DNA of 64,000 nucleotides from Nonomuraea gerenzanensis (lineage in GTDB: Bacteria; Actinomycetota; Actinomycetes; Streptosporangiales; Streptosporangiaceae), in assembly GCF_020215645.1 (NCBI RefSeq), contig NZ_CP084058.1, positions 10,594,501 to 10,658,500 on the forward strand, in the 5' to 3' direction. Shown piece after piece: positions 10,917-52,634 of this stretch (its first letter is position 1; every line of letters starts with the position of its first letter). The notes beneath the pieces were generated by a model. The model did no database searches and was not told the origin of the DNA. It saw nothing but the letters and a program-made list of their open reading frames with translations. Position numbers and translations under genes: made by a program.

Positions 10917-11606
10917 ATGTCAAGGCTGGGACCTGTCATCACCCTCGCGGCGGGAGCAGTGCTCGCCCTGGGGCTCGGTGTCGCCAGCACCATCGCGACG
11001 CCGGCGGCCGAGGAAACGGCCGCCAACACCGCTGCGGAAGCACCACCTGTGGAGGAGAACACCGCGGCCGCATCACCCTCCCCCTCTCAGACGGCGCCCA
11101 AGAAGATCGCCAAGGCCGACTACGGCGGCCGGGTGAAGGGCAACGGCGCCCTCATCGCCATCTCGATCAGGAACGGCAAGGCCGTCGGCTACTTCTGCGA
11201 CGGCAGGACCGAGGCCTGGTTCAAGGGCTCGGAGTCCGACGGCCGGCTCCAGCTCAAGGGCGTGGCGAACGCCGGTTCCAAGGTGACGGCCGAGCTGGGC
11301 GGCGGCCGGGCCGAGGGCTGGGTCTCCGTCGGCGGCAAGAGGTGGGACTTCACGGCGCCCACCGTGGTCAAGCCGTCCGGCCTGTACCGCGCCACCGCCA
11401 TGGTCAGGGGCGCCAGGCTGCGCGCCGGCTGGATCGTGATCAAGAACCCGAACGGCGGCTACTACCAGGTCGGCGCCGCCTTCGCCGGAGAGGAGCAGCT
11501 CGACATCCCGCAGCTGAACAGCGAGCAGCCCACCGCCCCCGTGACCGTGGACGGCACCACCGTCAACCCCGAGGACGTCGACGGCTTCATCGAGGAGATG
11601 CAATGA
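10917..11606 (+). CDS. Secreted or membrane-anchored protein of unknown function
   Basis: A 229-residue protein with an N-terminal signal segment (ITLAAGAVLALGLGVAST), an Ala/Glu/Pro/Ser linker to about residue 65, and a compact beta-rich domain containing YGGRVKGNGALIAISI, GYFCDGRTEAWF and RAEGWVSVGGKRWDF. The repeated G-x-W/F patterns suggest a small barrel. ATG 10917 has GGGAG 6 nt upstream. Its stop overlaps the next gene's ATG by 4 nt (ATGA), so the two are translationally coupled and probably work together at the membrane. No named family recognised beyond this actinobacterial pairing. Confidence 0.8.
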   Translation: MSRLGPVITLAAGAVLALGLGVASTIATPAAEETAANTAAEAPPVEENTAAASPSPSQTAPKKIAKADYGGRVKGNGALIAISIRNGKAVGYFCDGRTEAWFKGSESDGRLQLKGVANAGSKVTAELGGGRAEGWVSVGGKRWDFTAPTVVKPSGLYRATAMVRGARLRAGWIVIKNPNGGYYQVGAAFAGEEQLDIPQLNSEQPTAPVTVDGTTVNPEDVDGFIEEMQ

Positions 11607-12151
11607 CCGCCACCCACCAGCAGCACCGCTCCCCCAGCGTGACCTCGTTACTGGTGCCGCTGCTCGTCGGCGGGCTCGTGGTGCTCGCGCTCGGCGTGTA
11701 CGGCCGGGCGCACACGCCGACGGGGTTCGCCGTCGGCGTGGCGGGCTTCTCCGCGGCGCTGCCGATGAAGGTCTGGCTGACCACCGGCGCGTTCGTGCTG
11801 GCGTTCGTGCAGGTGGTCTCGGCCCTGTCGATGTGGGGCAAGCTCGGGATCGACATCCCGCCCGCCGTGCACCGCTGGTCGGGCCGGCTGGCGTTCGTGC
11901 TCACGATCCCGGTCGCCTTCCACTGCCTGTACGCCCTCGGCCTGCAGTACGACGTCCCGCGCGTGCTCGCGCACTCGTTGCTCGGCTGCTTCTTCTACGG
12001 CGTGTTCACCGCGAAGATGCTGGCCCTGCCCAAGCGCGACACGCCGGGCTGGACGCTGCCCGTGCTCGGCGGGCTGGCGTTCACGGCGCTCGTCGGGCTC
12101 TGGCTGACCTCGTCGTTCTGGTTCTTCACCGCCGTCGGCTTCAAGGTGTGA
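11603..12151 (+). CDS. DUF6529 family membrane protein, cytochrome b561-like
   Basis: A 182-residue protein with five or so transmembrane helices. Histidines lie in or beside the helices: PAVHRWSGR, VAFHCLYALG and LAHSLLG, a pattern seen in b561/FRD-type membrane cytochromes that bind haem b. I infer transmembrane electron transfer. It is coupled by an ATGA overlap to the secreted protein at 10917, which would lie on the outer face and could be its redox partner. Its 3' end overlaps the convergent CoA-lyase gene by 11 nt. Confidence 0.78.
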   Translation: MTATHQQHRSPSVTSLLVPLLVGGLVVLALGVYGRAHTPTGFAVGVAGFSAALPMKVWLTTGAFVLAFVQVVSALSMWGKLGIDIPPAVHRWSGRLAFVLTIPVAFHCLYALGLQYDVPRVLAHSLLGCFFYGVFTAKMLALPKRDTPGWTLPVLGGLAFTALVGLWLTSSFWFFTAVGFKV

Positions 12152-13073
12152 AGCTCTTCGTCCTGCTCAGCCCGGCCGCCCGTCCCTTGGCGGCCACGAC
12201 GAGCGCCATCTTCCTGGAGGCCTCGTCGATCATCTCGTCGCCCAGCATGACCGCGCCGCGCTTCTCGACGGTGGTGTAGTGCTCGTACGCCTCCAGGATG
12301 AGCTCGGCGTGGTCATAGTCCTCCTGCGCCGGCGAGAACACCTCGTTGGCGGCGTCCACCTGCGCCGGATGCAGCACCCACTTGCCGTCGAACCCCAGCG
12401 CCGCCGCCCGCCGCGCGACCCTCGTGAAGCCCTCGACGTCCTTGATCTGCAGGTAGGGCCCGTCGATCACCTGGAGGTCGTGCATCCTGGCCGCCATGAG
12501 CAGCCGCATGAGGATGTAGTGGTAGGCGTCGCCCTCGACGTAGCCGGGCGGCTGCTCGCCGACGACCAGCGTGCGCATGTTGATGGAGGCCATGAAGTCG
12601 GCGGGGCCGAACACGAGCGTCTCCAGCCGCTTCGACGACCCGGCGATGGCGTCGGCGTTCACCAGGCCGCGGGCGTTCTCGATCTGCGCCTCGATGCCGA
12701 TGCGGCCCACCTCGTACCCCATGGTCTTCTCGATCTGCGTGAGCAGCGTGTCGAGCCAGACCACCTCGGTCGGGTCCTGCACCTTGGGCAGCATGAGGCA
12801 GTCGAGGAACGCTCCCGCCCCCTCGACGATCTCGATCACGTCGCGGTACGTCCACTGCGTCGTCAGGTCGTTCACCCTGACCACGCGGGTCTTGCCCGTC
12901 CAGTCGCCCTCGCGCAGGGCGGTCACGATGTTGGCCCGCGCCTCCTGCTTGGCCAGCGGCGCGACGGAGTCCTCCAGGTCGAGGAAGACCTCGTCCACGG
13001 GCAGGGTCTGGGCCTTCTCCAGGAACCGGGGGTTGCTGCCGGGCACGGCCAGCACTGAACGTCGTGAGCGCAT
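12141..13073 (-). CDS. HpcH/HpaI-family CoA-ester lyase (malyl/citramalyl/methylmalyl-CoA type)
   Basis: A 310-residue TIM-barrel lyase of the CitE/Mcl group. Typical motifs are RRSVLAVPGSNPRFLEKA at the N-terminus, EVFLDLEDSVAP (metal-binding acid), RVVRVNDL, LDCLMLPKV, IEAQIENARGLVNA and FGPADFMASI, with GFDGKWVLHPAQVDAAN near the end. Members cleave or form L-malyl-CoA or beta-methylmalyl-CoA, as in the ethylmalonyl-CoA pathway used by actinomycetes for C2 assimilation. TAGCGT (13080-13085) lies 6 nt before the ATG, indicating a leaderless start. Convergent overlap with the DUF6529 gene. Confidence 0.88.
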   Translation of the reverse strand: MRSRRSVLAVPGSNPRFLEKAQTLPVDEVFLDLEDSVAPLAKQEARANIVTALREGDWTGKTRVVRVNDLTTQWTYRDVIEIVEGAGAFLDCLMLPKVQDPTEVVWLDTLLTQIEKTMGYEVGRIGIEAQIENARGLVNADAIAGSSKRLETLVFGPADFMASINMRTLVVGEQPPGYVEGDAYHYILMRLLMAARMHDLQVIDGPYLQIKDVEGFTRVARRAAALGFDGKWVLHPAQVDAANEVFSPAQEDYDHAELILEAYEHYTTVEKRGAVMLGDEMIDEASRKMALVVAAKGRAAGLSRTKSFTP

Positions 13074-13139
13074 GCGGACACGCTACTGGACCAGGCAATG
13101 GCGCTTTCCGAAACCCGACGGCACCAGTCGGGACCCAGC

Positions 13140-13145
13140 TAGAGT
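13140..13145 (+). promoter_or_regulatory. -10 element of the ATPase-TOPRIM-DUF262 cassette
   Basis: TAGAGT, followed by 6 nt and the ATG at 13152; no ribosome site. This suggests a leaderless transcript and that the cassette carries its own promoter. No regulator gene accompanies it. Confidence 0.55.
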
Positions 13146-13151
13146 TGCGCC

Positions 13152-14420
13152 ATGGTCCTGCTGCGCATGGCGGTTGACAACTATCGTTGCTTCAAGGAGC
13201 GGCAGGAAATCGAGCTTCGTCCCATCACCGTGGTGCTCGGCAAGAACAACTCCGGTAAGAGCGCACTCACGCGGCTGCCGCTCCTGCTGGAGACCGGGAT
13301 TCGCACGGGTTCCACCCTTCCGCTCGATGTCGACGCTCTCGGCGACGACCCGCCCGATTTCCTCGACCTCGTCTACGGCCGGAATGTGCATCGCGCACTG
13401 AGACTGGAGTTCGCAGCGGGAGACCTCCGTCATGAGGTACGAGTGAAGGCGACGATCCAGAACATCGCCGAGCGGCGGACTCAGTTCGTCAGTGAACTGG
13501 AGATCGACTTTCGGGGCAGACGGGTGAATCTGGAGTGGCTCGGGGCCGACGTCGCGACGTACTCGATGACCGTGAACGACGGCCCCTCAGTCGAGACGCA
13601 TGTCACCTTCCGCGGGCTGCTCCCCCTCAGAGCCGACCACCCCGATCTCCCCGATGGCGGGCGCGACTGGCTCCAATCGCTCCGCTTCAGCATCAGGCAA
13701 GACATCGAGAGCACTCGCTATCTGAGCGCCTACAGGCAACGTCCGGCCAGGCTCACGCGCTTGCCGTCGCGGATGGCGGCAGAGGTCGGCGCTGCCGGCG
13801 AGAATGCCACGGGCATGCTGGTCAACGATCACGTCCGCGGGGATCGGACCTTGCTGGGATGCGTCAACGAGCTCCTCGGGGACAGTCTCGCCGGTTGGCG
13901 GCTTGAGATCGAGGCGCAGGGGCCGATGTACTCGGTCAACCTCCGGTCGGTGGCCGATCCCGCCCTCAGCGTCAATCTGCTCGATTCAGGCACCGGTGTC
14001 GCACAGGTTCTGCCCCTGCTCGTGCAACTGGCGGCCGACAGGAACGCCACGCCTCCTTACCGACGGTTACTGCATGTGATCGAAGAACCCGAACTCCACC
14101 TTCATCCGGCCTTTCACGCACTGCTGGCGGACCTGTTCATCGGGGGGGCGAAGCGCGGCAGGGGCCGCTTCCTGATCGAGACCCACAGCGAGACCATGTT
14201 GCTGCGGCTCCGCCGCCGCATCGCCGAAGGACGGATATCGTCGGACGACGTGGCCATCCACTTCGTGGATCACAGCGCGGGGTCATCCCAGGTGCGGCGC
14301 ATCAACATCGATGATCTCGGCAATCTCGACTACTGGCCCAGTGGTGTCTTCTCGGAGGATTTCGAGGAGACCAAGAAGCTGGCGGAGGCCCAGTTCGCCC
14401 GCGAGCGCCATGAGAGTTGA
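13152..14420 (+). CDS. OLD/AriA-like ABC-type ATPase of a putative defence cassette
   Basis: A 422-residue SMC/ABC-like ATPase. Walker A is GKNNSGKS (residues 30-37) directly after the first strand (NYRCF...ELRPITVVL). The signature-like region LLDSGTGVAQVLPLL lies near residue 276, Walker B is HVIEEPELHLHP near 308, and ETHSETMLLRLRRRI near 343 is the H-loop type seen in OLD-family and AAA_15/AAA_21 proteins. No nuclease domain is fused; the next gene supplies a TOPRIM-like one. The stop overlaps the next start by 11 nt. Base composition is visibly less GC-rich than the flanks. Proposed role: ATP-driven sensor of a phage-defence or restriction module. Confidence 0.85.
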   Translation: MVLLRMAVDNYRCFKERQEIELRPITVVLGKNNSGKSALTRLPLLLETGIRTGSTLPLDVDALGDDPPDFLDLVYGRNVHRALRLEFAAGDLRHEVRVKATIQNIAERRTQFVSELEIDFRGRRVNLEWLGADVATYSMTVNDGPSVETHVTFRGLLPLRADHPDLPDGGRDWLQSLRFSIRQDIESTRYLSAYRQRPARLTRLPSRMAAEVGAAGENATGMLVNDHVRGDRTLLGCVNELLGDSLAGWRLEIEAQGPMYSVNLRSVADPALSVNLLDSGTGVAQVLPLLVQLAADRNATPPYRRLLHVIEEPELHLHPAFHALLADLFIGGAKRGRGRFLIETHSETMLLRLRRRIAEGRISSDDVAIHFVDHSAGSSQVRRINIDDLGNLDYWPSGVFSEDFEETKKLAEAQFARERHES

Positions 14421-41776: not shown

Positions 41777-42553
41777 TTGCGATACGACGCACCGAGCTTG
41801 GAGCGGTGGAACAGTCGCGCCTACGACAGCAGCTTCGGCTACGTCTCCACGCAGGGTGCGCCACTGGTCGACCTGCTGGACCCGCGGCCCGGCGAGCGCG
41901 TGCTCGACCTCGGTTGCGGCACCGGGGTGCTGACCGCGCAGATCGCCTTCAGAGGGGCCGAGGTCCTCGGCATCGACGGCTCCGCCGCGATGATCGAGAA
42001 GGCACTCGCCCAGTATCCCGGCCTCGACTTCATCATCGGCGACGGGCACGACTTCACGGTCGTGGACCCGTACGACGCGGTGTTCTCCAACGCCGCGCTG
42101 CACTGGATGAGCCGCGAGCCCGGCGCCGTGATCGCCAGCGTCCGCGAGGCACTCAAGCCTGGCGGGCGCTTCGTCGCGGAGATGGGCGGCGCGGGCAACT
42201 GCGCCGAGCTGACCACCGCGATGCTGACCGCCTGGCGCGAGTACGGCCTGCGCGAGCCCGAGCTGCCGTGGTACTTTCCCACGCCTGCCGAGTACGCCCG
42301 CCGCCTCGAGCAGGAGGGGTTCGTGGTCAGGTTGCTGGAGTACTTCGACCGGCCCACTCCCCTGGACGAGTGCCCCGGCGGGGCCGCCGACTGGGTGCGC
42401 ATGTTCGCCGCCTCGGTGCTCGAAGGGCTTCCCCCCGAGATCGTGGAACCCCTGCTCCGACGCGTGAACGAGCTCGCCGCGCCCGCGCTTCGCAGGGAGA
42501 CTGGCTGGATGGCCGACTACGTGCGTCTACGCTTTGCCGCTGTTCGGCGTTGA
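41777..42553 (+). CDS. Class I SAM methyltransferase (trans-aconitate methyltransferase-like)
   Basis: A 258-residue methyltransferase. The SAM motif is VLDLGCGTGVLTAQIA (about residues 43-58), followed by VLGIDGSAAMI, the acidic DFIIGDGHDF, and FSNAALHWM, the pattern of trans-aconitate 2-methyltransferases. C-terminal part: WYFPTPAEYARRLEQEGFVV. TTG 41777 is the only start upstream of the SAM motif that gives a full domain; ribosome site weak. Substrate unknown. Confidence 0.83.
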   Translation: MRYDAPSLERWNSRAYDSSFGYVSTQGAPLVDLLDPRPGERVLDLGCGTGVLTAQIAFRGAEVLGIDGSAAMIEKALAQYPGLDFIIGDGHDFTVVDPYDAVFSNAALHWMSREPGAVIASVREALKPGGRFVAEMGGAGNCAELTTAMLTAWREYGLREPELPWYFPTPAEYARRLEQEGFVVRLLEYFDRPTPLDECPGGAADWVRMFAASVLEGLPPEIVEPLLRRVNELAAPALRRETGWMADYVRLRFAAVRR

Positions 42554-42665: not shown

Positions 42666-44936
42666 ATGAACTTCTGCCTGAGCGACCTCGTACCACCGTT
42701 GAGGTGGAGCGACTCGTCGACGATCACGCTACTCACCGGGCAGCCGGACCTGCCGGATGCGTGGTGGCGCAGTTTGCCCATGCCGCGGGTGCTGGCCGCG
42801 ATCGGCCCCGAGTCCCTGGGCGAGCTGCTGACGGAGATCGCCCTTGAGCACTGGCCCGCGGCGGCGGTGGGCGACGTCCTGCCTGCGCTGCACGTCCTGG
42901 ACCCGGAGGAGGCTGACGAGCCCGCCGTCGCGATCGCGCTCGACCGCGCCGGGTCGTGGGCCGGGCTGCTCGCGCTGACCAGCCGGGAGCTGGTGGACCA
43001 GCCGTTCATCCAGGCCCGGCCGGTGCTGAACACGTTGTTCTCCGCCGTTCTGGTGCGGCTGGCGCATCCGCACGGCGAGGACGTGTCCGCGCACGTGCAC
43101 GTGTCCCGCGAGGTGGCGCTCGGTCATGCGCCGGTGGAGCTTGAGCCGGGGGCCGCCGTCGGGCGCTCGTACGTCGCCGATGAGGCTGAGTCGGCCGCTG
43201 CGGCGCCGGAGCGGGCCGGGGTGGGTGAGGAATCGGTTCCGGGGGCGGTCGGCGCGCAGCACGGCGCTGAGGGCGTCGAGGGGCGTGATGCCGACGGCGA
43301 GGGCGAGCGCGAGCCCGCCGACGCGGCTCACTTCGCCGAGGAGCCGGCCGCCGAGGCCGAGCGTGCCCCCGAGGACGCCTATGCCGAGGACGCCTACGCC
43401 GGAAACGACTACGCCGGCGATGCGCTCGCCGGGGACGCCCTCGACGCCGGGCACGGCGAGCCGCACGAGGCCGACGCACACGAGGCCGACGCACACGAGG
43501 CCGACGCACACGAGGCCGACGCACACGAGGCCGACGCGCACGAGGCCGACGCGCACGACGAAAGCGCCGAGCACCATGAGGCCGCTGGGCAGGAGGAGCG
43601 CGCCGGGCACCAGGAGAGCGCCACGCTCGACGAGGAGCTCGACGGCGAGGAGCAGGACGCGGCCGAGCGGGTCGTGGACGCCGACGCGGAGCCGGTCTCC
43701 GACGAGGCCCACGAGCCGGAGCCCGAGCCGGTGCTGGACGCCGCCGACGAGCCCGCCCCCGACCCGGCGGCCCACGAGGCCGAGGCCCTCCAGGCGGAGG
43801 CCGCCCACGAGGGCGCCGCTCACGAGGACGCGGAAAGCCAGGAGCTACCCCAGCTCATCGAGGCCGCATTCGCCGGCCTCGACGACAAGAGCTGGGCCGT
43901 CGCCCAGAACCGGGTCTTCACCGACGAGCCCTCCGCCGTCGACCAGCTGGCCAAACTGTTCGCCGTCCCCCCGGCCGAGATCTCCGCCACCGAGGAAGAG
44001 CTGCGCGCCCGCCTAGACCGCTGGCTGTCGAGCGACGAAGCCGCCCCGTACCGGGCACACCTGGACGAGCTGGTCAGAACGCTAGGCCCGGCAGCCCCCA
44101 AGGAGCAGCTGATCAACGCGGCCGACTGGCACACCGTGGAGATCCAGGCGCTGGAGGTCCCCGCGTGGCAGTTCGTGCTGACCACGCTGGCCCCGCCCCC
44201 ACCGCCGCCTCCTCCGCAGCCGGAGCTCCCACCGCCACCGCTGCCGCAGCGCAAGCCGTACCAGCAGCAGCCGCCGCCGGTGGAGCTGGTGCCGTCGGCG
44301 TTCGGCCCGGTCGGGATCACCCCGCCGCCTCCGGGACCGCCGCAGTTCCAGGCGTTCACCCCGGCCGCCCCGCCCGTCCAGCCGATGCAGGAGGCCAACG
44401 GCGAGCAGGACAAGCCGTACCAGCCGCTGAAGGACGTCTCTCAGACGCGGCGCTGCTTCAGACAGCCCGACGGCCGCTGGTGGCTGCGCATCGACGTGAC
44501 GGCCGAGCAGCTCGCGGGCGGCGAGTGCGTGCTGCCGACGGGGTTCGCCTCGTACCTGGGGCTGTCGCCGGGCGAGAGCAGGACGGTCAGGAGCGCCGCG
44601 GGCGAGCTGACCATGGTCTGGCACGGCAAGCCGATCCTGCAGAGCATCGAGCGGCTCCTGGTGGACGTGGGCGCCCGGGAGGGCGGCCACCTGTTCCTGA
44701 CGCTGTCGGACGAGGGGGTGCTGCGCGCCAGGCACCTGCCGGTCGCCGCCCAGGGCGCCGAGAAGATCACCAAGGCGCTGCGCCTAGTGGGCTACACCGC
44801 CCCGGGAGGCACCCGCGACCAGGCGGCCAGGGTGATCGCCACCAGGATCGGCATGACGGGGCCCGTCGCCCTGCCCGACCTGCTCAACAGGCTCCGCGAA
44901 CGCGGGGATCGCGACCTGCTCGAACTCCTGGACTGA
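42666..44936 (+). CDS. Sigma-region-4-like paralogue A of a three-gene cluster, with acidic repeat insert
   Basis: A 756-residue protein of unknown function, clearly paralogous to the gene at 46810. Residues 1-115 (NFCLSDLVPPLRWSDSSTI, DAWWRSLPMPRVLAAIG) and 585-756 (YQPLKDVSQTRRCFRQPDGR to LLNRLRERGDRDLLELLD) match its N- and C-terminal domains. Residues 392-508 (PQLIEAAFAGLDDKSWAVAQ, FAVPPAEISATEEELRARL) align with the paralogue's sigma-region-4-like HTH but have lost the R-E-R-I-R-Q-I-E signature. Between them lie an acidic stretch (about 150-390) with six HEADA repeats and a proline-rich linker (508-580). The helicase gene starts 4 nt downstream. Confidence 0.75.
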   Translation: MNFCLSDLVPPLRWSDSSTITLLTGQPDLPDAWWRSLPMPRVLAAIGPESLGELLTEIALEHWPAAAVGDVLPALHVLDPEEADEPAVAIALDRAGSWAGLLALTSRELVDQPFIQARPVLNTLFSAVLVRLAHPHGEDVSAHVHVSREVALGHAPVELEPGAAVGRSYVADEAESAAAAPERAGVGEESVPGAVGAQHGAEGVEGRDADGEGEREPADAAHFAEEPAAEAERAPEDAYAEDAYAGNDYAGDALAGDALDAGHGEPHEADAHEADAHEADAHEADAHEADAHEADAHDESAEHHEAAGQEERAGHQESATLDEELDGEEQDAAERVVDADAEPVSDEAHEPEPEPVLDAADEPAPDPAAHEAEALQAEAAHEGAAHEDAESQELPQLIEAAFAGLDDKSWAVAQNRVFTDEPSAVDQLAKLFAVPPAEISATEEELRARLDRWLSSDEAAPYRAHLDELVRTLGPAAPKEQLINAADWHTVEIQALEVPAWQFVLTTLAPPPPPPPPQPELPPPPLPQRKPYQQQPPPVELVPSAFGPVGITPPPPGPPQFQAFTPAAPPVQPMQEANGEQDKPYQPLKDVSQTRRCFRQPDGRWWLRIDVTAEQLAGGECVLPTGFASYLGLSPGESRTVRSAAGELTMVWHGKPILQSIERLLVDVGAREGGHLFLTLSDEGVLRARHLPVAAQGAEKITKALRLVGYTAPGGTRDQAARVIATRIGMTGPVALPDLLNRLRERGDRDLLELLD
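43464..43553. repeat. Six 15-bp tandem repeats (HEADA) in paralogue A
   Basis: Units of CACGAGGCCGACGCA from 43464, every 15 bp, nearly identical; each encodes HEADA. The tract sits inside the acidic linker and is likely variable between strains. Confidence 0.9.
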
Positions 44937-44940
44937 GCCG

Positions 44941-46761
44941 GTGCCGCGGCTCGCGATCGGCCCTGAGTTTCCCAGGGAGCTCAGCGCACTGGCCCAGCCG
45001 GTGCGCAGGGACGCCGTGGTCGCGCTGCGCCGGTTCCTGCTGAACGTGTCCGGCGCCCCGCACCCCGAGCGGGTCAGGGGCGCCAGGGACCCGAGGGTCG
45101 CGACCCTGCGCCTGGCCGAGGGCCATCGCGGGGTGGTGGTGCGGCAGCGGGACGTGTACTGGCTGCGCACGCTGCTGCCGGACCCCGAGGCCTGGTCGTA
45201 CGCCCGCCGCCACCGCTACGGCGTCAACCCGGCGATCGGCGTCGTCGAGGAGTGGGACGCCGAGGCGCTGGACAGGGTGGAGCCCGCGTTACGCCGATCG
45301 GCCAGGTCGGCGCGGCTGTTCGCGCCGATCTGCGACGGCGACCTGCTGGGGCTGGGCCTGGACCTCGCCGCGCTGCCGCTGTTCCGCCTGATCACGACCG
45401 AGGCCGACGTGGCCGCGCTGGAGCCGCTGCTGCCGCCCACCCAGTACGTCCCGCTGGCGGTGCTGGCCAGGGGCGGCTCGCTGTCGGAGGCGTGGCGGGA
45501 GCTGGACGCCTGGCGCGCGACCGACAGCGAGCCGGGCCCGATCGACCCCGAGGACCTGTACGCGGCGCTGCGCCGCAGCCCGGACCGGGCGGTGTTCGTC
45601 TCCGACAAGGTCACGCTGGACCGGGTGCTGGAGGCGCCGGGCTGGTGCACGTTCCTGTACCCGCCGCAGCACCGGCTGGCCAGGGCGGCCAGGTACGAGC
45701 ACCCGGTGCTGGTCGTGGGCGGCGCGGGCACCGGCAAGACCGTGGTCGCGCTGCACCGGGCGGCCCACCTGGCGGCGCGGGGCGCGGGTCCCGTGCTGCT
45801 GGTGACGTTCTCGCAGAGCCTGGCGGAGGACCTGGCGGCGCGGCTGGACGTGCTGATCGAGGACGAGGTGGTGCGCAAGCGGGTCGAGGTGGACAACGCC
45901 GAACGCCTCGCCGTGCGCATCGTGGCCGGCGCGGAGGGCAGGCGTCCCCCGCTGGTCGGCCCGGGGGCCCGATCGCTGGCCCAGCTCACGGAGGACGCGT
46001 TCCGGTTGCTGTCGATCTCGACAGGTGATCTGCTCGACGATGTGGATCCGGGGCGCAAGCCGTACCGTCACATGGTTGTGGACGAGGCACAGGACATCAG
46101 CCCCGCGCAGTGGCGGCTGCTCAGGGCGGCCGTGCCGCGGGCGCGGGACGATCTGTTCATCGTGGGTGATCCGCACCAGCGCGTCACCGACACGAAGGTG
46201 GCGCTCGGCGCGGTGGGCATCCCCGCCGACCAGCACTCGCTCGACCGCTCCCACCGGCTGCCGCAGGAGCTGCTGTCCTTCTCCGTACGGCTGCGCGGCG
46301 GCAGCCCGTCCCCCGGCCTGGTCAAGGGCGTGACCGACCTGGCGGCCTTCAGCGCGACGCGGCACGGCGAGCGGCCGGTGGTCAGGGCGTACGACACGCA
46401 GGAGGCGGAGCTGGCGGGGCTGCGCGGCACCGTCGACGGGTGGCTGGCCGACGGCGTGCCCGCCGGCGAGATCGCCGTGGGCGCCCGCAACCAGCGGCTG
46501 GTCCGCGCCGCCAAGCGGGCGCTGACCGGCCTGGACGTGCGGGCCTCGACCTTCCAGCAGCTGAAGGGGCTCGAGTTCGAGCGGGTGGCGCTCATCGGCG
46601 TGGCGGAGGGCGTGGTGCCCGAGCCGCCGCCGGAGGAGCCTTACGCGCGGGCTCGTGCCCTGCAGCGCGAACGGAGCATACTGTTCGTCGCCTGCACCCG
46701 GGCGCGTTCGATGCTCTATATCTCCCATTCCGGAAGAGGCAGCCCGTTTCTACCCCTCTGA
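44941..46761 (+). CDS. UvrD/Rep-like SF1 helicase with RelE-like N-terminal domain
   Basis: A 606-residue protein. The helicase core shows Walker A VVGGAGTGKTVVALHRA (about 260), Walker B MVVDEAQDISPAQW (379), motif III FIVGDPHQRV (410), LDRSHRLPQEL, motif V STFQQLKGLEFERVALIGVA (537) and motif VI ILFVACTRARSMLYI (584). The first ~110 residues (HPERVRGARDPRVATLRLAE, AWSYARRHRYGVNPAIGVVE) match the RelE/ParE-fold domain found before some UvrD-type helicases. Translation starts at GTG 44941, 4 nt after paralogue A. The core should be an ATP-dependent DNA or RNA translocase; the N-terminal domain may bind or cut RNA. Confidence 0.85.
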   Translation: MPRLAIGPEFPRELSALAQPVRRDAVVALRRFLLNVSGAPHPERVRGARDPRVATLRLAEGHRGVVVRQRDVYWLRTLLPDPEAWSYARRHRYGVNPAIGVVEEWDAEALDRVEPALRRSARSARLFAPICDGDLLGLGLDLAALPLFRLITTEADVAALEPLLPPTQYVPLAVLARGGSLSEAWRELDAWRATDSEPGPIDPEDLYAALRRSPDRAVFVSDKVTLDRVLEAPGWCTFLYPPQHRLARAARYEHPVLVVGGAGTGKTVVALHRAAHLAARGAGPVLLVTFSQSLAEDLAARLDVLIEDEVVRKRVEVDNAERLAVRIVAGAEGRRPPLVGPGARSLAQLTEDAFRLLSISTGDLLDDVDPGRKPYRHMVVDEAQDISPAQWRLLRAAVPRARDDLFIVGDPHQRVTDTKVALGAVGIPADQHSLDRSHRLPQELLSFSVRLRGGSPSPGLVKGVTDLAAFSATRHGERPVVRAYDTQEAELAGLRGTVDGWLADGVPAGEIAVGARNQRLVRAAKRALTGLDVRASTFQQLKGLEFERVALIGVAEGVVPEPPPEEPYARARALQRERSILFVACTRARSMLYISHSGRGSPFLPL

Positions 46762-46809
46762 TCACATAGTCTGAACTGCGGATATCTTCCCTTTGCCGGT
46801 TGGACCTCA

Positions 46810-48654
46810 ATGAACCTCAGCCTGAGCGACCTCGCGCCACCCCTGCGCTGGACCTCCCCTGGTCAGATAGCGCCGATCGTGGAGGAGCCCCAGCTGCCCG
46901 AGGCCTGGTGGCAGGCGATCCCCCTCGACCGCGCGTGCGCCATCGTCGGCGCGCAGACCGTCGCGGGCCACCTGGCCGACCTGGCCGTGGCCTGCTGGGG
47001 GCATCTCATGCTCGGCGACATCCTGCCGCTGCTGCGCTTCTCCGACCCCGCCGAGGCCGAGCGGACGCCGGAGACGCTGGGCAAGGACGTGGTGCAGAAG
47101 CTGTTCAGCGGCGTGTTCGAGCGGTTGCTGGAGCCCGCGCCCGAGGCCGTGCCCGCGCCGTCCAGGCCGGACAGGCCGCTGCCCGAGCTGATCGACGAGC
47201 TGTTCGGCGCGCTGGACGACCGGCAGCGCGCCATCGCCCGCGACCGCCTGTACGCCACGCAGCGGGCCACGCTGGACGAGCTGGCGCAGCGGTTCTCGGT
47301 GACGCGGGAGCGGATCAGGCAGATCGAGCGCGACCTGCGCGACCACGTGGAGTCCTGGCTGAGCAGGCCGGAGGCCGCCCCCCTGGTCGCGCACGTGACC
47401 TGGCTGCGCGGCCGGCTGGGCTCGGCGGCGCCGGCCGACGACCTTCAGGCCACCGTGCCGTGGCACCGGACCGAGCTGCGCACGCTGGGGATCCCGGCGT
47501 GGCGGTTCGTGCGCACGCTGCTGACCGGCTACGAGCAGGCCGACGGCTGGCTGGTGGCGGGCGGCGCCGACGAGCTGAGGGAGAAGACGCGCCAGCTCTT
47601 CGCCGACGGGCCGCACCCGCTCGGCGAGGCCGTGTCCATGGTGTCCCAGCTCGGCGTGCGCGAGGACGTGGCCGAGCGGTGGATCCTGGCCGTGCCGCAG
47701 CTACGGGTGCTGGGCCAGCACGTGGTGCCGTGGCCGCGCAGCATCAACGAGAAGGCCGAGGCGGTGCTGGCGGTGGCGGGCGCGCCGCTGTCGCCGGAGG
47801 AGATCCAGGAGCGCATCGGCGAGGACTACAGCCTGGTCGGCATCCGCAACCAGCTCACCGCCGACGAGCGCTTCCGCCGGGTCGACCGCAACAAGTACGG
47901 GCTGACCAGGTGGGGCGGCGACGAGTACCTGGGGATCAGGGAGATGATCGCCAGGGAGATCGAGCGGGCCGGCGGCGAGGCCTCGGTCAGCACGATCGTG
48001 GCCAACCTGACCTCCCGTTACGACGTGAGCGAGAGCTCGGTGCGCGCGTACTCCGGCGGGCCGGGGTTCGAGCGCACGCAGCGGGGCTGGATCAGGGTGG
48101 CGGGCACCGCGCCCGGCGGGGAGGCGGAGCCGTACCAGCCGCGCAAGGACGTCTCTGAGACGCGGCGCAGCTTCCGCTCCCGCGACGGCCGCTGGTGGCA
48201 CCGGGTGGACGTCAACGCCGAGCACCTGCGCGGCTCCGGGTCGCCGCTGCCGACGGGGTTCGCGGCGTACCTGGGGATGGCGCCGGGCGGGCAGCTCACG
48301 GCGTCCGCGCCGTCCGGCGACGTGGTGATCAGCTGGCACAACCAGCCGACGATGGGCTCGATCCGCAACGTGCTGGCCGAGTACAAGGCGCAGGAGGGCG
48401 ACCACGTCTTCCTGACCGTGTCCGACGGCGGGGAGCTGCTGACCCGCTACCTGCCGGCCGCGCCCGTGGGCATGCCGCCCATCAACCGGGCGCTCTACCT
48501 GTTCGGCTACACCGCGCCCGTCAGCTCGGAGATCGAGGGCCTGCGGCTGATCGGGGCCAGGATCGGGCTGCCCGACACGGCCACCCGCGAGGAGATCCTC
48601 GGCAGGCTCCGCGAGCGCGGCGACAGGGACATACTCGGTTTCCTGGGCGGATGA
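46810..48654 (+). CDS. Sigma-region-4/HARE-HTH-like paralogue B of the three-gene cluster
   Basis: A 614-residue protein. Residues 1-110 (NLSLSDLAPPLRWTSPGQIA, EAWWQAIPLDRACAIVG) and 442-614 (YQPRKDVSETRRSFRSRDGR to ILGRLRERGDRDILGFLGG) are shared with paralogue A. Residues 123-185 are a sigma-70 region-4-like HTH: LDELAQRFSVTRERIRQIER is a textbook match. Residues 314-368 (AEAVLAVAGAPLSPEEIQER, RFRRVDRNKYGLTRWG) resemble a HARE-HTH/RpoE-delta winged helix, followed by another winged helix to 432. It therefore looks like a multi-HTH DNA-binding protein rather than a true sigma factor, since region 2 is absent. cysS follows after 20 nt. Confidence 0.8.
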   Translation: MNLSLSDLAPPLRWTSPGQIAPIVEEPQLPEAWWQAIPLDRACAIVGAQTVAGHLADLAVACWGHLMLGDILPLLRFSDPAEAERTPETLGKDVVQKLFSGVFERLLEPAPEAVPAPSRPDRPLPELIDELFGALDDRQRAIARDRLYATQRATLDELAQRFSVTRERIRQIERDLRDHVESWLSRPEAAPLVAHVTWLRGRLGSAAPADDLQATVPWHRTELRTLGIPAWRFVRTLLTGYEQADGWLVAGGADELREKTRQLFADGPHPLGEAVSMVSQLGVREDVAERWILAVPQLRVLGQHVVPWPRSINEKAEAVLAVAGAPLSPEEIQERIGEDYSLVGIRNQLTADERFRRVDRNKYGLTRWGGDEYLGIREMIAREIERAGGEASVSTIVANLTSRYDVSESSVRAYSGGPGFERTQRGWIRVAGTAPGGEAEPYQPRKDVSETRRSFRSRDGRWWHRVDVNAEHLRGSGSPLPTGFAAYLGMAPGGQLTASAPSGDVVISWHNQPTMGSIRNVLAEYKAQEGDHVFLTVSDGGELLTRYLPAAPVGMPPINRALYLFGYTAPVSSEIEGLRLIGARIGLPDTATREEILGRLRERGDRDILGFLGG

Positions 48655-48674: not shown

Positions 48675-50048
48675 ATGTTGCGGATCTACGACACGCGTGC
48701 CAGGCAGGTCGAGGAGATCGCCGCCGGGCGCGCGGTGCGGATGTACACGTGCGGGCCGACGGTCTACCGGCACGCGCACGTGGGCAACCTGCGCACGTAC
48801 CTGCTGTCCGACCTGATCAGACGGGTCCTGGAGCGGCGGCGGGTGCGGGTCGTGGCCTGTCAGAACATCACCGACGTCGGCCACCTCGCCGATGACGCAG
48901 GGGCCGAGGCCGAGGGCGAGGACAAGGTCCTCGCCCAGGCGCGCGCCGAGGGGCGCTCGCCGCTGGAGCTGGCGCGCCACTACGAGGACGCCTTCAGGGC
49001 CGACACGGCCGCGCTCAACCTCCGGCCGCCCGAGCACCTGCCCAGGGCCAGCGAGAGCGTCGAGCTGATGGTGGAGCTGATCGCCAAGCTGGTCGAGCAG
49101 GGGCACGCCTACGCCGTGCCCGACGGCTCGGTCTTCTTCGACGTACGGACGTTCCCCTCCTACGGGGAGATCTCCGGCAACCGGCTCGACGCACTCAAGC
49201 CCGCCCACCGCATCGAGACCGTCGATCCCCGCAAGCGCTTCCACGCCGACTGGGCGCTGTGGAAGCCCGGCGAGGGCGAGCTGACCTGGGAGACTCCGTG
49301 GGGGCGCGGCTTCCCCGGCTGGCACGTGGAGTGCTCGGCCATGTCCCTGCGCTTCCTCGGGCCGCGCTTCGAGATCCACACCGCCGGCATCGACCTGCGC
49401 TTCCCGCACCACGAGGACGAGCGCGCGCAGTCGAACGCGGCGACCGGCCACGAGGTGGTCGACCACTGGGTGCACGGGGAGCACCTGCTCTTCGACGGGC
49501 AGAAGATGGCCAAGTCCACGGGGAACGTGGTGCTGCTGTCCGACGTGGTCTCGGCCGGGCTCGACCCGCTGGCCGTGCGGATGGCGTTCCTGGAGCACCG
49601 CTACCGCCAGCAGCTCAACCTCACGTGGGACACGCTGAGGGCCGCCGACCGCACGGTGCGCAGGTGGCGCTCGCGGGTGGCCGATTGGGCCGAGTCGGTC
49701 AGCGCGCCCCTGTCGCAGGAGCACGTGGACCGGGCGGAGGCCGCCTTCGACGACGACCTCGACACTCCGGCGGCCCTGCGGGTGCTGCGGGAGCTGGAGC
49801 GGGACGAGTCGGTGGCGCCGGGGGCGAAGTTCGAGACGTTCCTGCACCTGGACCAGGTGCTGGGGCTGGACCTGTCCATCGACATCGGCAAGCCCAAGGT
49901 GCTGCCGCCCGGGGCAGCCGAGCTGCTGGAGGCGCGGGCCAGGGCCAGGGAGTCCGGCGACTGGGCCGCCTCCGACCGGTTGCGGGAGGAGCTGGCGGAG
50001 CTGGGTGTACGCGTTTCCGACACGGCCGAGGGTCAGACCTGGGTCTGA
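48675..50048 (+). CDS. cysS: Cysteinyl-tRNA synthetase
   Basis: A 457-residue class I synthetase that charges tRNA-Cys. Zinc/active-site RMYTCGPTVYRHAHVGNLRT contains the HIGH-type HAHVG; further motifs are NITDVGHLADDAGAEAEGED, GWHVECSAMSLRFLG, IDLRFPHHEDERAQS and the KMSKS loop as GQKMAKSTGN (Ser replaced by Ala). The helical DALR-type region is present, so it is not the shorter MshC. It may be a second CysRS. TAAGCT (48663-48668) sits 6 nt before ATG 48675, so it can have its own promoter despite being 20 nt behind the cluster. Confidence 0.9.
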   Translation: MLRIYDTRARQVEEIAAGRAVRMYTCGPTVYRHAHVGNLRTYLLSDLIRRVLERRRVRVVACQNITDVGHLADDAGAEAEGEDKVLAQARAEGRSPLELARHYEDAFRADTAALNLRPPEHLPRASESVELMVELIAKLVEQGHAYAVPDGSVFFDVRTFPSYGEISGNRLDALKPAHRIETVDPRKRFHADWALWKPGEGELTWETPWGRGFPGWHVECSAMSLRFLGPRFEIHTAGIDLRFPHHEDERAQSNAATGHEVVDHWVHGEHLLFDGQKMAKSTGNVVLLSDVVSAGLDPLAVRMAFLEHRYRQQLNLTWDTLRAADRTVRRWRSRVADWAESVSAPLSQEHVDRAEAAFDDDLDTPAALRVLRELERDESVAPGAKFETFLHLDQVLGLDLSIDIGKPKVLPPGAAELLEARARARESGDWAASDRLREELAELGVRVSDTAEGQTWV

Positions 50049-50114
50049 GGCCCGTCCGGAGGAGTGATCACGAACTGCCAGACTTGATGCCAGTTCGGCA
50101 TGAAGGAGGTGGCG

Positions 50115-52634
50115 GTGAGGCCCTATGCGTGGATGCCGTGGCCGTTGCGGTGGTCCGCTCGGGTGTTGACCGTGCTTCTCGCACTGGTTCTGGTGCTGGC
50201 AGGGGTCCTCGTCTACACGGTGCGCAAGTCGTTCCCGCAGGTGGACGGATCGCTGCGGCTCCCCGGCTTGACCGGGACCGTGGAGATTTATCGGGATAAA
50301 TCGGGGATCCCCCACATTTATGCCGACAGCGCTGCGGACCTGTTCCTGGCCCAGGGGTTCGTGCACGCCCAGGACCGCTTCTACGAGATGGACTTCCGCC
50401 GCCACATGACCGCCGGGCGCCTGTCGGAGCTCTACGGCGCCGCCACCCTCGACACCGACAAGGCCCTGCGGACCATGGGCTGGCGCAGGGTGGCCGAGCG
50501 GGAGGTGCCCGAGCTGGCCCAGGAGACGAAGGGCTACCTCGACGCGTACGCCAAGGGCGTCAACGCCTGGCTCAGCGCCAACCCGAACGCCTCCGACCGC
50601 AGCCTCGAGTACTCCATCCTGAAGCTCCAGGGCGGCGGCGGCACACCGGAGAAGTGGACCCCGGTCGACTCCGTGGCCTGGCTCAAGGCCATGGCGTGGG
50701 ACCTGCGCTCCAACGTCGAGGACGAGATCGACCGCGCCCTGGCGCTGACCGAGCTGCCCAGGGAGCGGGTGGAGCAGCTCTACCCCGGCTACCCGTACGA
50801 CCGTCACCTGCCGATCGTCAACGAGGGCGCCGTCGTCCAGGGCCGCTTCGACCAGCGGGCCGAGCCGCGGCTGCGCGGCAACCGGGCGCTCGCCGACGCC
50901 GCCGACACGCTCGGCGACCTGCCGGACACGCTGGGCACGGGCTCCCCCGGCACCGGCGACCGGTCGGGGCTCGGGTCGAACTCGTGGGTGATCTCCGGCG
51001 AGTACACCACCGGCGGCAAGCCGCTGCTGGCCAACGACCCGCACCTGTCGCCGGGGCTGCCGTCCGTCTGGTACCAGGCGGGGCTGCACTGCCGCAAGCT
51101 CACCGCCGAGTGCCCGTACGACGTGACAGGGTTCACCTTCTCCGGCGTGCCCGGTGTGATCATCGGGCAGACGGACAAGATCGCGTGGGGCTTCACGAAC
51201 CTCGGCCCCGACGTGGCCGACCTCTTCCTGGAGCAGGTCGACGGCGACACCTACCTCTACAAGGGCTCGCGGCTGCCGCTGGAGACCCGGCAGGAGAAGA
51301 TCAAGGTGGCGGGGGGCGCGACCGTCACGCTCACCGTCAGGGCCACCCGGCACGGCCCGCTGATCAACCAGGTCATCCCCACCGCCAAGCCCAGCGGCGA
51401 GGCCAACGCGGTGGCGCTGCAGTGGACGGCGCTGACGCCCGGCAGGACGGTGGACGCGATCTTCGCGCTGAACAAGGCCGCCGACTGGCAGGAGTTCAAG
51501 GCGGCGGCGGCCCTGTTCGACGTCCCGGCGCAGAACCTCGTCTACGCCGACACCTCCGGCAAGATCGGCTACCAGGCGCCCGGCCGCATCCCCGTGCGCG
51601 CGAACGGCGACGGCACCTGGCCGGTCCCCGGCTGGACCGGCGAGTACGAGTGGAACGCCGCCCCCATCCCCTACGACCAGCTCCCCTCGGTCGAGGACCC
51701 GGCGGACGGCTTCATCGTCACCGCCAACAACGCCGTCATCGACCCCGAGCGCTACAAGCCGCTGCTCACCAAGGACTGGTCGTACGGCTACCGCTCCGAG
51801 CGCATCCGCACCCTGCTCAAGGAGGCCATCAAGAAGGGCCCGATCGACACGGGCACCATGGCGCGGATCCAGCAGGACACCTACAACGGCTTCGCCGACA
51901 CGCTGGTCCCGGCCCTGATGGAGGTGGACCTGGCGGGCCCGTCCGTCCAGGCCAGGGACCTGCTCAAGACGTGGGACCGCATGCAGGGCGTCGACTCGGC
52001 CCCCGCCGCGTACTTCAACGCCGTCTGGCGGCACGTGCTCACGCTGACCTTCAACGACGACCTGCCCGCGGCGGCCCGCCCCGCCGGAGGCGACCGCTGG
52101 TACGAGGTCGTCAGGCGGCTGCTGGAGGCGCCGGAGGACCCGTTCTGGGACGACGTGACCACCCGCGAGGTCGCGGAGACCCGCGACGACATCCTGCGCC
52201 AGGCCATGGCCTCGGCCCACCAGGAGCTCGCCGACCGGCTCGGCACGGACGTCAAGGCATGGCGCTGGGGCGACCTGCACCGGCTCGAACTCGTCAACGG
52301 CTCGCTCGGGACCTCGGGGATCGGGCCGGTGGAGGCGCTGTTCAACCGGGGTCCGCTGCCGGTGGCCGGCGGCAAGGACGCGGTGAACGCCACGGGCTGG
52401 AACGTTCAGAACGACTACGCGATCACGGCGGTGCCGTCGATGCGGATGATCGCCGACCTGTCGGACCTGAACCAGTCCCGGTGGATCAACCTGACGGGCG
52501 CCTCGGGGCACGCCTTCCACGACAACTACTGGGACCAGGCCGAGGCGTGGGCGCGGGGCGAGCTGCTGCCGATGCGCTCCAAGCCGGAGTCGGTCAGGAA
52601 GGCCGCCGTGCACACGCTCAAGCTGACCCCCTGA
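50115..52634 (+). CDS. Penicillin acylase family (Ntn) amidohydrolase
   Basis: An 839-residue membrane-anchored member of the penicillin G acylase/acyl-homoserine-lactone acylase family. One N-terminal helix (VLTVLLALVLVLAGVLVYTV) leads to the alpha chain (EIYRDKSGIPHIYADSAADL, AQGFVHAQDRFYEMDFRRH). The self-processing nucleophile Ser lies in GLGSNSWVISG (about residue 288), with LLANDPHLSPGLPS after it. Substrates are N-acyl amides such as quorum signals or beta-lactams. GTG 50115 is preferred to ATG 50100 because a perfect AAGGAGGT (50103-50110) lies between them at the right distance from the GTG. Confidence 0.9.
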   Translation: MRPYAWMPWPLRWSARVLTVLLALVLVLAGVLVYTVRKSFPQVDGSLRLPGLTGTVEIYRDKSGIPHIYADSAADLFLAQGFVHAQDRFYEMDFRRHMTAGRLSELYGAATLDTDKALRTMGWRRVAEREVPELAQETKGYLDAYAKGVNAWLSANPNASDRSLEYSILKLQGGGGTPEKWTPVDSVAWLKAMAWDLRSNVEDEIDRALALTELPRERVEQLYPGYPYDRHLPIVNEGAVVQGRFDQRAEPRLRGNRALADAADTLGDLPDTLGTGSPGTGDRSGLGSNSWVISGEYTTGGKPLLANDPHLSPGLPSVWYQAGLHCRKLTAECPYDVTGFTFSGVPGVIIGQTDKIAWGFTNLGPDVADLFLEQVDGDTYLYKGSRLPLETRQEKIKVAGGATVTLTVRATRHGPLINQVIPTAKPSGEANAVALQWTALTPGRTVDAIFALNKAADWQEFKAAAALFDVPAQNLVYADTSGKIGYQAPGRIPVRANGDGTWPVPGWTGEYEWNAAPIPYDQLPSVEDPADGFIVTANNAVIDPERYKPLLTKDWSYGYRSERIRTLLKEAIKKGPIDTGTMARIQQDTYNGFADTLVPALMEVDLAGPSVQARDLLKTWDRMQGVDSAPAAYFNAVWRHVLTLTFNDDLPAAARPAGGDRWYEVVRRLLEAPEDPFWDDVTTREVAETRDDILRQAMASAHQELADRLGTDVKAWRWGDLHRLELVNGSLGTSGIGPVEALFNRGPLPVAGGKDAVNATGWNVQNDYAITAVPSMRMIADLSDLNQSRWINLTGASGHAFHDNYWDQAEAWARGELLPMRSKPESVRKAAVHTLKLTP

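Follow-up and report, generated by a model that had tools for sequence, protein, structure and literature searches.

The window analysed here is a stretch of 64,000 nucleotides from Nonomuraea gerenzanensis (contig NZ_CP084058.1, positions 10,594,501 to 10,658,500), and our subject is a cluster of three genes in it, all on the + strand: a gene for a large protein which we call A, a superfamily 1 (SF1) helicase gene, and a gene for a second large protein, B. The gaps between them are short (4 nt between A and the helicase, 48 nt between the helicase and B). The features of this cluster, referred to below as the trio, are the following, in window coordinates:

42666..44936, + strand: protein A, 756 aa (open reading frame, domain blocks)
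43464..43558, + strand: 15-bp tandem repeat in the linker of A, 6.3 copies, 98% match
44941..46761, + strand: SF1A (UvrD/PcrA-type) helicase, 606 aa (open reading frame, motifs)
46810..48654, + strand: protein B, 614 aa (open reading frame, domains)
47179..47361, + strand: sigma region 4 of B (residues 124-184), with an intact VTRERIRQIE helix
47368..48099, + strand: four predicted tandem winged helices of B (residues 187-430)
48169..48453, + strand: predicted B3-like DNA-binding barrel of B (residues 454-548) with an LRGSG motif; the C-terminal domain shared with A

Domain composition of protein B

Protein B combines an N-terminal helical domain, a sigma region 4, four predicted tandem winged helices, a predicted B3-like barrel and a helical tail, in this order. 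Sigma region 4 is found above the Pfam cut-off (PF04545, 31.8 bits), NCBIfam sigma models match B only over this part, and no region 2 family is among the Pfam matches of B or A. Because region 2 is missing, neither sequence is classed as a sigma factor, in agreement with an earlier, sequence-only reading of this DNA, which had taken the second outer protein for a sigma region 4 protein but not a normal sigma factor. The winged helices are predicted at residues 187-250, 253-307, 312-365 and 376-430. For the HARE-like winged helix that had also been proposed, the third of these wings is the predicted counterpart, but its match to PF05066 lies under the Pfam cut-off.

The recognition helix, VTRERIRQIE, is identical over ten letters to that of a solved SigA. 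Its residues R166, E167, R168, R170, Q171 and E173 are invariant in 36/36 proteins of an alignment (A3), of which 23 are B proteins of the trio type and 13 are more distant relatives. The matching residues of sigma-70 (R584, E585, R588 and Q589) contact the -35 element. The pattern RERxRQxE is retained in 12/12 B proteins and in four of five Pbe-linked relatives (the exception being at locus L067), and is altered in 6/6 A proteins, in 8/8 proteins of a third paralogue, C (least in L072), and in 5/5 mycobacterial plasmid proteins. Since the helix is intact in B and altered in A, it is likely B, rather than A, that reads DNA through sigma-4.

A new prediction is that the C-terminal domain shared by A and B folds as a B3-like DNA-binding barrel. 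When queried with Foldseek, it matched several plant B3 structures, among them VAL1 (5yzy_C, prob 1.00, TMt 0.55, rmsd 3.7); for single B3 domains the values were prob 0.98-1.00, TMt 0.44-0.56 and E 0.008-0.1. This is a fold match without a sequence match: searched by sequence against solved structures, the domain gave no convincing relative except sigma-4, and no B3 protein. The absence of other families from the fold lists is not to be read as evidence against them. The restriction enzymes BfiI, CglI and NgoAVII also use a B3 fold.

Protein A and the helicase

Protein A opens with a conserved N-terminal domain (residues 1 to ~140), followed by a long repetitive, acidic and Pro-rich linker, a degenerate sigma-4-like block (residues 394-509) and a C-terminal block (residues 577-755) homologous to the B3-like domain and helical tail of B. 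Its alignment with B consists of three matching blocks, with identities of 32% at the N-terminus, 41% in the middle and 49% at the C-terminus (E 2e-50), and together with the two short gaps these confirm the previously proposed arrangement of paralogous outer genes around a helicase. The description of both paralogues as sigma-region-4-like needs qualification: the block of B is intact, but that of A is degenerate, and A has zero Pfam matches, sigma region 4 and region 2 included. A is a paralogue of B that has lost the recognition helix, which B has kept. The length of A varies between species, and the repeat in its linker is a near-perfect one of 15 bp.

The helicase carries a ~240-aa N-terminal family domain ahead of its SF1A core, in which the motifs are complete and in order: Walker A (260), DEAQD (379), GDPxQ (409), KGLEF (542) and ACTRA (584). 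Its predicted fold resembles Rep, PcrA and UvrD (model pLDDT 66), and between motifs I and II the Nonomuraea protein has 72 residues fewer than a Streptosporangium orthologue of 685 aa. A RelE-like N-terminus, suggested by a predicted b-a-a-b-b-b-a order, was dropped on profile evidence: 0/15 helicase members matched RelE/ParE families in Pfam, with chance-level hits only, and hhalign of the N-terminus against RelE/ParE gave a prob of 0.7% (against 5 sequences, two of them nearly identical). The structure-search lists were filled by helicase cores.

Conservation and inheritance of the trio

We followed the trio in a family sample (120 genomes, 68 genera), a phylum sample (396 genomes) and a class sample (394 genomes, searched for B-like proteins only), the phylum and class genome searches scoring few candidates per genome. 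Protein searches supplied the best 120 of 201 and the best 120 of 2034 matches, on which the alignments drew. A B orthologue at an identity of at least 66% is present in 48/120 family genomes, and 47 of these 48 also have the A C-terminal domain and the helicase N-domain beside B, in the order A-helicase-B (G068 is counted here; its B is split over two contigs, with the first part beside the helicase). Conservation of the neighbours beyond the genus, on which the sequence-only reading had let its proposal depend, was therefore found: the trio occurs in 47/120 family genomes and 24/68 genera, at a single syntenic place, and the full trio is absent from the other 73.

B of other genera is 66-84% identical to that of the window, and against another N. 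gerenzanensis sequence (NZ_LT559118) the identity is 100% for B and 99.8% for the helicase. A methyltransferase gene lies upstream in 7/7 compared loci (L078, L079, L080, L101, L104, L217, L218), and a cysteinyl-tRNA-synthetase-like gene downstream in four of the seven, partially in two, while L101 yielded no whole copy. When the window is compared with G100, identity is 93% for B, 84% for the helicase and 57% for A (in its longest aligned segment), with 84-92% for the neighbours and 69% for a lipoprotein gene; a five-locus comparison gave 61-93% for B, 72-90% for an aminotransferase and 79-92% for the methyltransferase. Going by these identities, the conservation of B is close to that of some neighbours, and somewhat lower than theirs in more distant pairs.

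Outside the family, the phylum sample contained only scattered distant forms of B-like proteins, the helicase N-domain was found in 7 of its genomes, the host included, and no genome except the host had both, once B matches covering just the sigma-4 region, which true sigma factors also give, were set aside. A genome-wide scan with an alignment of D-type relatives was not counted, as its listed matches were mostly ~50 residues at the sigma helix and resembled true sigma factors.

The host also encodes the third paralogue, C (806 aa, L062:5106-7526, host C1:8589605-8592025), which has a long repetitive Pro-rich linker and no helicase beside it; by eye, its neighbours resemble pseudouridine catabolism genes. 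Several trio-less genomes have a C-type protein near SUF-like genes, again by eye. In a tree of 55 sequences, with L204 and L216 not included, the A clade (support 100) and the B clade (99) are sisters (99), so the outer genes are indeed related; C branches next (81-85) and the defence-type relatives fall outside. The D-types form two clades with good support, and L067 is an outlier, which suggests that the association with Pbe was retained or arose on more than one occasion. As for the question whether the shared C-terminal domain always neighbours the helicase, the answer is no: C has no helicase beside it, none was recognised next to the gene at most of the 29 distant B-like loci viewed, L217 has lost most of it, and L071 has A alone.

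Relatives in defence islands

Sixteen loci were fetched by the helicase N-domain (L089-L104), of which L101 and L104 are trio loci, leaving 14; profile scans covered chosen neighbours. At 9/14 a profile named a defence-type near neighbour: a DruE-like gene (L089, L099), an N6 or type I methylase (L090, L094, L096), GmrSD_N (L093), PADLOC HEC-05 (L100), DrmD together with GmrSD (L095), and a PD-T4-6-like kinase with DrmB nearby (L098). DrmD beside a helicase relative scores 1355 bits, and OLD-like genes are also among the neighbours. By eye, L091, L092 and L097 have a similar defence-type setting, and L102 and L103 do not. That distant relatives of this helicase adjoin DISARM, Druantia, GmrSD or methylase genes is a new observation.

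The second new observation concerns B, whose distant relatives have genes that overlap the start of pbeA. We viewed 29 distant B-like loci (L036, L063-L070, L105-L109, L113, L114, L204-L216; L106 and its sister fragments counted once, L036 and L211 on contigs of <4.3 kb), judging neighbours by a small reference set and by eye, with profiles on chosen ones. The overlap, of 1-4 nt, is found at 7/29 (L063, L067, L068, L070, L105, L204, L216), with pbeC-like, pbeD-like and dnd genes nearby; the B-like gene of L216 is short (418 aa). At L063, PADLOC models identify PbeA (854 bits), PbeC (895 bits), DndA/SspA, DndB and DndC, and NCBIfam assigns PbeA to its Dnd restriction enzyme model with 541 bits (cut-off 600) and PbeD to dnd_assoc_4 above cut-off. 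The D-types of L063, L067 and L204 carry an RNA polymerase alpha-CTD above cut-off. PbeA/PbeC-like genes lie on the opposite strand at L210, and further B-likes are near GmrSD (L205), MmeI (L209) and a split UvrD-PDDEXK gene (L106). The remaining 18/29 loci have no recognised defence gene, save toxin-antitoxin genes on three mycobacterial plasmids, and at most of the 29 no adjacent helicase was recognised. With relatives of B and of the helicase both in defence loci, both partners belong to defence-island families.

Relatives of B also occur in 17 plasmid records. Ten of them were fetched, and one of these is in fact the N. gerenzanensis chromosome, deposited under a plasmid label. Three small circular records of Microbacterium chocolatum plasmids (L106, L111, L112) hold common island pieces with split genes (UvrD-PDDEXK, PDDEXK_1, B-like, DUF4011 helicase) and may be assembly fragments. 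On mycobacterial plasmids (L107-L109, L113, L114) the B-likes have ~583-633 aa and a changed sigma-4 helix, and some adjoin toxin-antitoxin or thermonuclease genes.

Comparison with known systems

One of the closest known systems is Dnd/Pbe (CxC ABC-ATPase/DndE, DndCDEA-PbeABCD), a phosphorothioation-linked defence in which, at the seven loci above, the gene of a B-like protein lies immediately upstream of pbeA and overlaps it. The trio, however, has no adjoining Pbe or Dnd gene, and its motor is SF1 whereas PbeA is PLD-SF2. The host has its own dndA, dndB, dndC and dndD-like genes at L220 (C1:10996000-11015900), ~363 kb from the trio, but this separate locus is without PbeA: it gave no PbeA or B-like match, and for PbeA the host genome yields just a 20.8-bit fragment. 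Section 16 of PMC10853773, on the gene partners of the Pbe-type system, does not name a B-like protein, and "sigma" appears in that paper once, for DndH; the available part of PMC6459918 names no B-like protein either, and "sigma" is not found in it.

NgoAVII and CglI (an R-protein with PLD and B3, an N-protein with an SF2 helicase) are similar in coupling B3-type recognition to a helicase motor; according to the available part of PMC4267653, they are thought to work by the B3 protein binding its site and triggering ATP hydrolysis. The trio differs in its SF1A motor, in having a B3 domain by predicted fold, and in that no nuclease domain and no DNA methyltransferase partner were found. A PLD nuclease with a cognate C5 methyltransferase was likewise not recovered, there being no nuclease in the three proteins and the neighbouring methyltransferase being generic. 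MzaA of the MZA anti-phage system is the top match of B in NCBIfam (36.7 bits) and PADLOC (18.5 bits) and lies on its sigma-4 domain, but only ~50 residues are matched, far under the NCBIfam cut-off of 800. HelD/HelR with delta (RpoE) shares the SF1A core of the helicase and the HARE/delta-like winged helix of B, yet the helicase scores well under the HelD/HelR cut-offs and below PcrA. Finally, the match to GajB of Gabija covers a helicase core common to SF1A at large, and the cluster has no recognised GajA-like gene. A literature search over titles and abstract openings (Pbe, HARE/sigma, B3-restriction and UvrD/DISARM topics) found no description of the trio or of the B family.

Interpretation

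We read the trio as a chromosomally fixed module for DNA recognition and translocation, a reader plus a motor, of defence-system ancestry, and we give this reading an even chance of being right. The sequence data show the gene order, its conservation, the homologies, which motifs were kept or lost, and the relatives in defence islands; complex formation, target, output and a role against invaders are what we infer in proposing how it might work. B would grip double-stranded DNA with its sigma-4 helix (probably at a -35-like motif), its winged-helix array and its B3-like barrel, and would recruit or license the SF1A helicase at the marked site. The helicase would then translocate from the B-bound site, stripping or unwinding DNA, and A, with the ends of B kept and the recognition helix lost, could be a scaffold or a brake. 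Given that no nuclease domain was found, cutting is not predicted, and the marked DNA would instead be remodelled, blocked or passed on to host nucleases.

Several observations weigh against this proposal. In contrast to the majority of defence systems, the trio has been inherited at a single position, and tblastn of B against the phage collection gave no match at E 0.001, hence no sign of a phage origin. Pfam names no nuclease domain in A, the helicase or B, and the neighbouring methyltransferase was dropped as a candidate modification partner, matching generic methyltransferase families alone. The B3 resemblance is by fold alone (Foldseek E 0.008), no Pbe gene was seen at 21/29 distant B-like loci, and the Pbe-linked protein of L067 has a changed helix and no sigma-4 Pfam match. 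Dependence on phosphorothioation is unsupported, DndC being present in 6/47 trio genomes versus 4/73 others (Fisher p 0.19). Moreover, G034 has lost A and most of the helicase (L217, ~10973-13204) and kept B, at 72% identity and still beside the conserved methyltransferase gene, and G025 keeps an A-type protein alone (L071); with one genome having B alone and one A alone, the trio is separable.

The main rival is a transcription-linked machine, in which sigma region 4 and the delta-like HARE winged helix let B dock on RNA polymerase or on promoters, bringing along a HelD/PcrA-like motor that clears or recycles stalled polymerase, in the manner of HelD with delta or of transcription-coupled repair. 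Inheritance at a single place and the RNA-polymerase-like modules keep it open, and we regard it as possible though rather doubtful: the HelD/HelR scores are far under cut-off and below PcrA, the same helicase family sits elsewhere in defence islands, and a separable trio whose full form is absent from 73/120 family genomes fits it poorly. It also counts against it that B3 barrels are not known as parts of polymerases. The DNA- or transcription-linked machine put forward in the sequence-only reading has thus gained on its DNA side, through the predicted B3-like barrel and the defence-island relatives, and it may serve either defence or a transcription-coupled function.

A and B might instead be ordinary DNA-binding regulators, merely co-transcribed with a repair helicase and sharing no machine with it. 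That C stands alone, that B survives alone in G034 and that no helicase neighbour was seen at many distant B-like loci would all suit this, but the A-helicase-B order held in 47/48 B-orthologue genomes and the B-likes adjoining other helicases (PbeA, and a UvrD-PDDEXK gene in one organism) make it improbable. Least credible to us, and very unlikely, is a relic of a mobile defence system, drifting or domesticated for chromosome maintenance unrelated to invaders; the lack of a nuclease in the three proteins, the 72-residue shortening of the Nonomuraea helicase, the repeats in the linker of A and the partial losses in G034 and G025 speak for such decay, against which stand the intact helicase motifs, an identity of 66-84% for B in other genera and an invariant recognition helix.

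A bolder extension of the reader-plus-motor proposal, which we consider unlikely but worth stating, is that B-type proteins use promoter mimicry as target readers and steer different helicases to promoter-like DNA. Polymerase-derived grips (sigma-4, a delta-like HARE wing, sometimes alpha-CTD) would be joined to a B3 barrel and coupled to SF1A in the trio, PLD-SF2 PbeA in Dnd/Pbe and UvrD-PDDEXK elsewhere, so that invading DNA would be recognised by its promoters.

Our analysis defines a family of large DNA readers of which our profile libraries recognise only the sigma-4 (at times alpha-CTD) domain, which is tied to phosphorothioation-linked defence operons, and which many genera of one actinomycete family have fixed in the chromosome together with a motor. 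If the reader-motor model is true, some Pbe systems would have a recognition subunit in their B-like proteins, and the trio would be a clear example of a defence module that became, or stayed, a constitutive guard of the genome.

Neighbouring genes

No Pbe genes are among the trio or the scanned neighbours. The gene upstream of A (41777-42553) encodes a SAM methyltransferase with generic Methyltransf_25/11 matches only in the profile scan. Downstream of B lie the cysteinyl-tRNA-synthetase-like gene (48675-50048) and, beyond it, a gene of the Penicillin-acylase family (50100-52634; PF01804, 801 bits).
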